Of a DNA stretch of 64,000 nt, positions 33,019 through 59,279 are shown in pieces. A program made the translations under genes and the position numbers. Numbering within the stretch: the first letter of the stretch is position 1; each line of letters starts with the position of its first letter. The stretch is from Agarivorans litoreus (GTDB lineage Bacteria; Pseudomonadota; Gammaproteobacteria; Enterobacterales; Celerinatantimonadaceae). A model generated the notes under the pieces. The model was not told the origin of the DNA and ran no database searches. It saw only the letters and a list, made by a program, of their open reading frames with translations. The stretch is taken from contig NZ_BLPI01000001.1 of NCBI RefSeq assembly GCF_019649015.1, positions 1,259,501 through 1,323,500 on the forward strand, given 5' to 3'.

Positions 33019-33720
33019 ATGAACAAGAGTTTACTCACTAACTTAGCCACTTTGCTACTGGTAGCTGTAGGCTATTTTACTGCCAATGACTTAATCTTCT
33101 CGATTGGTTTGTTTGCTCTATCCGGCGCATTTACCAACTGGATAGCGGTGCATATGTTGTTTGAAAAAGTGCCCGGTTTATATGGCTCTGGGGTTATTCC
33201 GGCGCGCTTTGACGACTTTAAAGCAGGCATTAAACAGTTAATGTTGACCCAATTTTTTACTGCAGAAAACATCGACCGTTTTCTTTCTGATGCGAGTGGA
33301 AAAGCGGTGCAATTAAATCTGCGCCCAGTGATTGATAAAACTGACTTTAGCCCCGCTTATCATGCCTTAGTAGATACTATCGAAAACTCATCTTTTGGCG
33401 GAATGCTAGCGATGGTTGGTGGCAAAGAAGCACTCACTCCGCTTGAGCAGCCTTTTGTAGAAAAGCTCAAAGATGCAGTGATTGAAATTAGCCAAGATGA
33501 GCAATTTAGCGAAGCACTCAGAGAAGAATTAGAGCAACCTGAACACTTAGGCGATGTGCAACAAAAAATCACCTTAATTATCGAACAGCGGCTTGCTGAG
33601 CTTACCCCACAATTAGTTAAACAAATCATCCAAGAGATGATTCGTAAGCACCTAGGCTGGCTGGTCGTTTGGGGCGGTGTTTTTGGTGGAGTATTTGGCC
33701 TAATACACGGCCTAGTGTAA
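33019..33720 (+). CDS. DUF445 family membrane protein
   Basis: A 233-residue protein with N-terminal membrane segments (LATLLLVAVGYFTANDLIFSIGLFALSGAFTNWIAVHMLFEKVPGLYGSGVIPARFDDFK), a helical middle, and one C-terminal helix (WLVVWGGVFGGVFGLIHGL). The TNWIAVHMLFEKVPGLYGSGVIP stretch is the DUF445 signature. The function is unknown; the family is common in gammaproteobacteria. A ribosome binding site (AAAGGA) precedes the ATG. The gene ends at a 162-bp repeat. Confidence 0.85.
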   Translation: MNKSLLTNLATLLLVAVGYFTANDLIFSIGLFALSGAFTNWIAVHMLFEKVPGLYGSGVIPARFDDFKAGIKQLMLTQFFTAENIDRFLSDASGKAVQLNLRPVIDKTDFSPAYHALVDTIENSSFGGMLAMVGGKEALTPLEQPFVEKLKDAVIEISQDEQFSEALREELEQPEHLGDVQQKITLIIEQRLAELTPQLVKQIIQEMIRKHLGWLVVWGGVFGGVFGLIHGLV

Positions 33721-33726
33721 GTTGTA

Positions 33727-33888
33727 ATACCAATCACACTAAGTAAGTGGTCAGAAATAACGCCAGAAAAATACTCGAGAACCAGCCAGGATTTTTCGAT
33801 AAGTAGTTATTCTACAATTAAAAATTCTAACGCAGTTATCGAGTATTTTAACCAAATAGAATGAACTAGTACTTATTACAATTGGTAT
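33727..33888. repeat. 162-bp dispersed repeat with inverted ends, copy 1
   Basis: This fills the gap between two convergent genes. It begins ATACCAATCACACTAAGT and ends ATTGGTAT. Inside, AAAATACTCGA is mirrored later as TCGAGTATTTT, so the ends can pair into a long imperfect hairpin. A second copy of the same length lies at 58306-58467 in the same orientation, with the shared core TTTTTCGATAAGTAGTTAT. No ORF is inside. It looks like a MITE-like or other non-autonomous repeat. Confidence 0.82.
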
Positions 33889-33897
33889 AACATCCAG

Positions 33898-58302: not shown

Positions 58303-58305
58303 ATT

Positions 58306-58467
58306 ATACCAATCACACTAAGTCAGTGAGCAGAAATAACGCAAGAAAAACACTCGAGAATAAGCCAGGATTTTTCGATAAGTAGTTATTATATAAACAA
58401 AAATCCTAAGGCAGTTATCGAGCATCTTAACCAGATAGAATGAGCTGTTACTTAGTTCGATTGATAT
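58306..58467. repeat. 162-bp dispersed repeat with inverted ends, copy 2
   Basis: This is co-linear with copy 1 (33727-33888): same length, same orientation and, by eye, only substitutions. It starts ATACCAATCACACTAAGT and ends ATTGATAT, a degenerate inverted copy of the start. It lies between convergent ygiM and gspB, and its last base is the first base of the gspB stop codon complement. Confidence 0.82.
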
Positions 58468-59279
58468 TAGCCCCAATCTGATAAGGCATTAAGCCGGCAC
58501 AGATTGCCTGCCACCCGCAATACAATATCATCCAAGCGAATAGCCACCAACTCAATGTTCTTATTGACAAAATCCCCCTCTACCAACTCTTTATCATTAA
58601 GAGTGACATAACGGCGAGCAGGATCTGAGGAAAACACATGTGAATTAAAAGTTATCGCTGGAACCAGTTTTTGCACTTCAGGGTCGAGAGCACCTAGCAT
58701 TGGTACATCATCATAATTACTGGGATCAAGTTCTTCAGCCCAACTTAAGGTATTGGTTGCTTGCACAGCCGCGGCAAAACGTTGCTCTAAGCCCTTTTCT
58801 TCTGCCGAGTTAGGTTTAGCAGGCGCTGACTGCTGCACTGGTGCAGACTTACTGGCAACCACATTAGAGCTGGAGTTTAGCGTAGCCATTGGCTCTGGCG
58901 CTTGGTACTGCGGAATAGGTGCATTTAATAAGGTTTCAAACTGTTTTTGGCGTAGTGCCAGCAAATCAACCTTTTCTAGCCCTTCTAAGAGAGGCAAAGG
59001 CAACAGCTCAATCTCTAACTTAGGCTCAACCACCCGAGAGACCCGCATTATTGGTTTGGTTTCTAGCTCTTTAGTTACAGGCTGAACCGCAGCTTCAACC
59101 TTAGTCGCTGCAGTATCTGTATTTGATTGCTGCCACAACCAAAAACCGCCAGCGCCTAAAGATAAGGTGAGTACCGAACTTAGCACTGCGGTTAATACTG
59201 GATTAACTGACGAGGGTGCAACTAAAGCAACCGCTTCGCTTGGCTGACTGCGGCGCTGTGCGTCTAAAATACTGGACAT
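58467..59279 (-). CDS. gspB: type II secretion assembly protein GspB
   Basis: A 270-residue protein. One membrane helix (VLTAVLSSVLTLSLGAGGFWLWQQ, about 28-50) is followed by a long Pro/Ala/Ser-rich linker. The C-terminal GspB domain (about 205-270) has VPAITFNSHVFSSDPARRYVTLNDKELVEGD and IRLDDIVLRVAGNLCRL. GspA and GspB help place the secretin through the cell wall. Its ATG overlaps the gspA stop by one base. The main gsp operon is not in the window. Confidence 0.88.
   Translation of the reverse strand: MSSILDAQRRSQPSEAVALVAPSSVNPVLTAVLSSVLTLSLGAGGFWLWQQSNTDTAATKVEAAVQPVTKELETKPIMRVSRVVEPKLEIELLPLPLLEGLEKVDLLALRQKQFETLLNAPIPQYQAPEPMATLNSSSNVVASKSAPVQQSAPAKPNSAEEKGLEQRFAAAVQATNTLSWAEELDPSNYDDVPMLGALDPEVQKLVPAITFNSHVFSSDPARRYVTLNDKELVEGDFVNKNIELVAIRLDDIVLRVAGNLCRLNALSDWG

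Follow-up and report, generated by a model that had tools for sequence, protein, structure and literature searches.

A 160-bp MITE family in Agarivorans litoreus with a conserved hairpin core and a probable IS630-family partner in other genera

Two short non-coding repeats of the Agarivorans litoreus genome belong to a MITE family that inserts at TNA, that would have been moved in trans by an IS630-family transposase with the same ends, and that is now ageing in this genome, while the structure formed by one of its strands appears to be selected in lineages still transposing. We give this combined reading a probability of roughly 80%. The MITE family itself is true, old in its own genome, and has a recognisable kind of partner elsewhere; its unusual traits are a one-strand structure conserved class-wide and the change of ends around the core. 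In the proposed mechanism, a 160-bp non-coding element with ends TACCAATC/GATTGGTA would insert at TNA (mostly TAA or TTA) to generate a 3-bp duplication, with mobilisation in trans by a transposase from an IS of the IS630 family whose ends and duplication it shares. One strand folds into a hairpin of 160 nt, the internal loops of which are conserved; most likely this structure aids spread, or tolerance at places where neighbouring genes are transcribed in the same sense.

The window, i.e., the whole stretch of 64,000 nucleotides analysed, corresponds to positions 1259501-1323500 of contig C1 of the A. litoreus genome (G000). Counted from its first letter, it contains the following features.

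33728..33887, + strand: MITE copy A, 160 bp, TACCAATC ... AATTGGTA (sequence read, own-copy alignment, covariance model R1)
33725..33727, no strand: left target-site duplication TAA of copy A (own-copy alignment)
33888..33890, no strand: right target-site duplication TAA of copy A (own-copy alignment)
58307..58466, + strand: MITE copy B, 160 bp, TACCAATC ... GATTGATA (sequence read, own-copy alignment, covariance model R1)
58304..58306, no strand: left target-site duplication TTA of copy B, whose left end sits inside the T-tail of an intrinsic-terminator-like hairpin
58467..58469, no strand: right target-site duplication TTA of copy B, identical with the minus-strand stop codon TAA of ORF 58467-59279
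~33777..33852, + strand: conserved core hairpin of copy A, with internal loops and a terminal GTAG..CTAC hairpin (order- and class-level alignment; limits approximate)
~58356..58431, + strand: conserved core hairpin of copy B (order- and class-level alignment as for copy A; limits approximate)

A preliminary description had recognised two copies of equal length and orientation, which we confirm at 86% identity; its limits (33727-33888 and 58306-58467) each took in one base of each duplication, and the element proper measures 160 bp. A covariance model built from 35 family elements, R1, scores 150.6 and 136.6 bits at the two copies, matching the corrected limits, and gave no match beyond them in a scan of 435 kb comprising the window and 80 IS loci. 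The mirrored ends that had been noticed are the inverted ends of the family, and the long hairpin potential is reflected in consensus RNA folds of -50.5 kcal/mol for the top and -48.8 kcal/mol for the bottom strand. By simple ORF calls, both copies lie between convergent ORFs, as described. Contact with a stop codon, reported for one copy, applies to copy B, the right TTA of which is the stop, and not to copy A, which starts 7 bp past the stop of ORF 33019-33720.

The same description had called for a genome-wide search, with a total of only two copies as the outcome speaking against its proposal. This search returned 34 match rows representing 31 copies, which are ~10% diverged from the query and mostly full length; L030, L033, and L034 have a right end that is cut off or interrupted by other insertions, and L037 and L039 carry internal deletions. 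Aligning the copies yielded a 160-bp consensus, TACCAATC...GATTGGTA, with inverted ends that extend imperfectly to ~26 bp. A TWA duplication (TAA or TTA) agrees between left and right in 24 of the 28 copies with both ends, a count that excludes the three without a right end in place; the 3-bp flanks of L003, L008, L013, and L036 differ by one base. Since the middle base of the flanks covaries, the duplication is TWA and not TA. Across four congeners, 93 element loci were placed (31, 26, 21, and 15), with identical flanks in at least 68, shared sites included, which is a lower bound because, where BLAST matches were incomplete, certain ends had to be extrapolated. Site B is clean and empty in G006, with a single TTA. 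Site A is occupied in G000 and G002, bears a relic of 28 bp in G004, and is devoid of the element in G001, G003, G005, and G006. No elements at all were found in G003, G005, and G006. Terminal inverted repeats, a target duplication, and 31 dispersed short copies without a transposase gene thus identify a MITE, and the initial label of MITE-like is borne out further by the empty sites in relatives and by a matching IS elsewhere.

What is left of the family in this genome is ageing, with copies and flanks decaying at similar rates. Nineteen of the 31 sites are common to at least one of G001, G002, and G004 on both flanks, and three more on one flank. Together with the failure to find a matching IS in the genome or its congeners, this sharing indicates that the copies are mostly old, and with the ~10% divergence it contradicts the recent spread that had been suggested. 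Orthologous copies of G000 and G002 have a mean identity of 0.933, compared to 0.924 for their 450-bp flanks (15 pairs, with exceptions both ways). Copy A falls below its flanks (0.861 vs 0.929); L004 (0.994 vs 0.872) and L245/L261 (0.988 vs 0.872) lie above theirs.

Some copies have a more complex history. An ISAs1-family IS (NF033564) occupies L030 214-1501 (G000:C1:1035653-1036940); having inserted into the MITE, it was rejected as a candidate partner. The end of that IS also breaks L033, at another point. The ~200-bp insertion in L038 has mirrored ends (CCTGAGCTCGGGATAA / TTATCCCAAGCTCAGG) and is probably another MITE, unrelated to the one that harbours it. Internally deleted forms of 96 bp occur among L015/L243 v L237 and L039/L259, and as the L015 site is full length in G000 and G001 and short in G002, this deletion arose in place. 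In G004, the copy at site B (L273, G004:C4:264085-264276) is decayed and tandemly duplicated together with its flank.

Elements of the same architecture, 157-160 bp long, share 0.84-0.89 identity with the consensus in G031 and 0.77 in G017, and further ones share 0.66-0.72 in G009/G011 and 0.50-0.57 in G007. A pair in G007 located 1.65 kb apart, considered as a single IS, represents two separate MITEs. Element length stays constant at 157-161 across relatives that differ by up to 50%. Within the order, R1 matched in 102 of 394 genomes and 18 of 115 genera, with no more than seven matches scored per genome; fuller scoring of 19 chosen positive genomes gave 1 to 62 elements each. In G286 and G296, identical copies occupy distinct sites, which points to recent movement there, and both genomes also carry the TACCAATC-ended IS630-family IS. 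The family is further present on four plasmid records of Vibrio and Photobacterium, where the match covers 80% of the query; named carriers are replicons of Vibrio sp. THAF190c, Vibrio pelagius, and Photobacterium sp. GJ3. The 976 other plasmid records (Klebsiella etc.) were left out, as most show no more than a ~39-bp match to the Vibrio-type element (query 105-143, ~92%), which falls under terB among the matches listed. The Vibrio-type element was found in none of the phage records, and viral contigs gave 0 matches to one exact core pattern.

At class level, R1 matched in 26 of 369 genomes, 24 outside the order and two (G000, G017) inside it. We took 34 loci and analysed 33, leaving out the partial match L437. 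Their ends, mostly with 4-bp duplications, are of the types GGA[AG]CCTCTGATTAAT and GGG[CT]ACCTCTATTAAT, for which IS5-like may be a suitable label; other loci end in GAGACCTTTGCACG or in TAC... at CTAG, and one in TACCAATTCG with TCA. A 3-4 bp duplication at the outer ends is present in 19 of the 33 loci; the duplications of 6 bp called for L412 and L428 are artefacts that arise because the ends are palindromic. Consensus columns agree at 51 of 62 positions in the core and at 10 of 19 in each end. The motifs CAAGGC, GCAG, AATAG-N-CTATT, CAAG, and AACGCAG recur in the core, and a strict core motif occurs on the top strand of 21 of the 33 loci, on the bottom strand of none, and at 0.00 in shuffles. 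Since long hairpins may score spuriously, as exemplified by a microRNA-family match of L425 at 4e-9 that is far under the threshold of that family, class-level homology rests on the loop motifs and not on E-values alone. No class-level element was found in E. coli genomes, nor in any plasmid. The retention of the core where ends differ hints at an undescribed structured mobile element.

The pairing of the hairpin has been maintained through extensive sequence change. In alignment A1, 93.9% of cells pair, as opposed to 82.9% in shuffled and 30-42% in slid controls, and both sides changed in 22 of 42 pairs, with 169 double-change cells against 53.8 (shuffled) and 14-36 (slid). The class-level alignment A4 shows both sides changed in 55 of 58 pairs and 359 such cells against 98.4 and 60-80, respectively; the compensatory changes that the preliminary description had proposed to look for are thus abundant at both levels. 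G-U is the commonest pair at three positions of A4, and the asymmetric internal loops CAAGGC / AACGCAG are conserved at class level. The strands are unequal: the consensus fold of 76 elements (L379, cut short, was dropped) has -34.5 kcal/mol on the top and -9.0 kcal/mol on the bottom strand. In pairs predicted on both strands, these elements contain 89 G-U and 19 A-C, with 177 vs 63 for the union of pairs and 95 vs 53 for bottom-derived pairs, counts that are not independent events because the alignment rows are related. The excess persists in subfamily consensuses, at 34 vs 11 (34 clusters, 92%), 27 vs 3 (23 clusters, 88%), 21 vs 1 (19 clusters, 84%), and 19 vs 1 (13 clusters, 80%), and in parsimony events, with 46 changes to G-U, 15 to A-C, and 83 double Watson-Crick changes. 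At class level, pairs predicted on both strands gave 52 G-U vs 14 A-C. Alignment A3, which mixes both strands of the same elements, was left out of the counts.

Decaying copies of the genus served as a control. At the same pairs, G-U vs A-C was 32 vs 28 (46 sites) and 20 vs 19 after insertion; for the union of pairs, it was 58 vs 39 (p=0.07) and 26 vs 26 after insertion. Substitutions per site were 0.0596 at paired and 0.0603 at unpaired positions (44 sites), and 0.071 and 0.066, respectively, in orthologues after insertion. At the centre (65-98), change after insertion is slightly reduced (0.052 vs 0.073, p=0.034). Covariation and a G-U excess across lineages, combined with no pairing constraint in genus copies, suggest that the structure is selected during propagation and not at resident sites. 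The idea of selection on structure put forward earlier therefore holds strongly across subfamilies and is not supported for resident copies. We conclude that the single-stranded form of one strand, RNA or single-stranded DNA, is selected in lineages still transposing. In single-stranded DNA, a G-T mismatch is also milder than A-C; RNA is most likely, being favoured by the sense orientation of the insertions and by G-U as the commonest pair at three class-level positions.

This orientation emerged from the gene context, as derived from simple ORF calls. The 31 own copies comprise 14 between tandem co-directional genes, 7 convergent, 6 divergent, and 4 tandem opposed, which lends no support to a previously suggested preference for convergent gaps. 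Of 48 non-redundant genus sites, 16 of which have no ORF within 500 bp on one or both sides, 14 are co-directional with and 2 opposed to tandem genes (p=0.004). A start codon lies within 60 bp of the right end at 16 sites and of the left end at 3 (p=0.004), and 8 sites abut a stop codon exactly. The bias is less marked among 47 elements from other genomes (co-directional 20 vs 10, p=0.10), none of which is located inside an ORF. Such positions, along with sites that are more conserved than their flanks, would fit an RNA element that serves the host as a 3'-end stabiliser, terminator, or leader and is kept because neighbouring genes use it. We consider this explanation improbable: selection on pairing at the host level is not supported, as paired and unpaired positions evolve alike after insertion, orthologues overall diverge like their flanks and copy A even more so, sites are gained and lost between congeners, and the orientation bias weakens in other genomes. 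The better-conserved resident copies and the slower centre may nevertheless reflect host-level use at some sites.

Covariation could also be a by-product of the DNA palindrome, with no role for RNA or a single strand. Arm-to-arm template-switch correction of palindromes is known in general, the whole element is palindromic, and cruciform recognition might act similarly. A by-product of this kind should be strand-symmetric, however, whereas G-U exceeds A-C at 89:19 and 52:14 and approaches 1:1 only in decaying copies. The conserved asymmetric internal loops and the G-U predominance at three class-level pairs also argue against a palindrome effect, which we judge unlikely as the source of the signal.

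Selection on a single-stranded form in transposing lineages leads to a further, tentative proposal that we hold as a possibility at somewhat long odds: the core may be a structured, probably RNA, selfish single-strand module older than its transposon ends. It is found on at least four end kinds across Gammaproteobacteria (TACCAATC with TNA; GGAGCCTCTGATTAAT and GGGCACCTCTATTAAT with ~4 bp; GAGACCTTTGCACG; TAC... at CTAG), with ~160 bp and the internal loops kept. RNA made in sense within operons might make insertions tolerable or aid spread, for instance through an effect on transcription or processing, and hence be selected in the course of propagation whatever the transposase.

As for mobilisation, end patterns of the relatives pointed to G031, in which a ~1.11-kb element with TACCAATC ends contains a decayed IS630-family transposase. 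IS630-family IS of ~1.11 kb with the ends of the MITE and a TNA duplication (family assignment by NF033545 and PF13358) occur in Vibrio, Shewanella, and related genera. In a scan of named genomes, the best 80 of 118 related loci came from Vibrio, Shewanella, Photobacterium, Alteromonas, Colwellia, and others; 60 of these 80 were examined, and 40 had both ends in range, 28 of them with identical 3-bp duplications. All 13 chosen multi-copy IS from three Vibrio records show TNA, TGA and TCA included, while L105 of the same IS group, as well as L108 and L109, have no identical TNA duplication. The TACCAATC-ended IS and the MITE end match at 23 of 27 bases (G009 subfamily vs L094 right end). Given an IS elsewhere with the same ends and TNA duplication, the repeat qualifies as a MITE, for which mobilisation in trans is most likely. 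TA is the standard target of the IS630 family; MITE and partner IS both have a 3-bp TNA duplication and not the duplicated TA of RUP-like elements. The TWA duplication had suggested IS5/Tourist-like ends, an assignment that was dropped as the IS with these ends is of the IS630 family. In many copies of the partner IS (e.g., L087, L094, L104), the transposase is encoded in two overlapping frames, suggesting programmed frameshifting.

Neither G000 nor the six congeners yielded a transposase of the TACCAATC-ended IS (1e-20 or 1e-35), and G001, G002, and G004 had no IS630 model match at 1e-5; trans-mobilisation in this genome would therefore lie in the past. The matching transposase that the preliminary description had sought thus exists in other genera and was not found in the own genome. 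Among the 394 genomes, 31 contain element and IS, 13 the IS only, 71 the element only, and 279 neither, corresponding to a Fisher OR of 9.4 with genomes counted without regard to phylogeny; of the 102 genomes with the element, 71 lack an IS match at E<=1e-35. The IS630 matches of G000 (L067, L070, L073, L074) stem from another, apparently recently active IS that has TACCC ends, a frame of 355 aa, and four nearly identical copies. That such a resident transposase, and not that of the TACCAATC-ended IS, moved the own copies is conceivable from these copies and from ends that begin TACCCAATC / TACCCG, yet there is no match to the MITE beyond the first bases, whereas the TACCAATC-ended IS matches over most of the MITE end and agrees in duplication, making the resident IS a rather unlikely source. 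Remnants of a protein-coding duplication, an alternative named at the outset for which we found no supporting point, can practically be dismissed in view of 31 copies with sharp ends, target duplications, empty sites, and a length fixed at 157-161.

Several described repeats resemble the family in part. RUP of Streptococcus pneumoniae, linked to IS630-Spn1, is likewise a short non-coding repeat with IS630-family-like ends and proposed trans mobilisation; in its published description, it has 107 bp and a TA target instead of 160 bp and a 3-bp TNA duplication (PMC2229807), and the MITE is further distinguished by strong covariation and a core common to elements of other end types. Correia/NEMIS elements of Neisseria measure ~107 or 155 bp, carry inverted repeats, give rise to hairpin transcripts, and have reported transcript effects; they are set apart, by published description, by TA at their termini and other ends (PMC2229807; PMC10969869). 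The enterobacterial ERIC/RU-1 and YPAL/RU-2, MITE-like palindromes located between genes, differ in length, with 127 and 168 bp; the printed RU-2 letters start and end otherwise, and YPAL duplications span 3-26 bp (PMC2759123; PMC2229807). By published length and duplication, and by printed letters for RU-2, the family is thus distinct from ERIC, Correia, and YPAL. QMITE2 of Coxiella burnetii, a gammaproteobacterial MITE of 150-190 bp with a strong hairpin, is often located near gene 3' ends and can become an sRNA; compared by description only, it differs by 7-11-nt direct repeats and a GTAG REP targeted by IS1111 (PMC5896051). MITEAba12 of Acinetobacter was similarly assigned to an IS, ISAba12, via shared ends and duplication length, and is described with 113 bp, a 9-bp duplication, and other ends (PMC6382973). 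Rfam 15 gave 0 matches at gathering score in the window and, at the element loci, neighbouring tRNAs and sub-threshold matches only. No description of the element was found among open-licence papers.

The partner adds an IS630-like group whose target duplication, TNA, is 3 bp long. Bacterial MITEs are usually viewed as deletion derivatives with an interior that may drift freely. In this family, individual pairs of the interior hairpin covary across many genera, and the hairpin persists through end changes. Lineages that propagate differ from decaying copies in G-U and A-C, a contrast by which selection on spreading can be told apart from host selection. The family offers a case, open to testing, in which a structure of a single strand, probably RNA, would matter for how well a passenger of DNA transposons succeeds.
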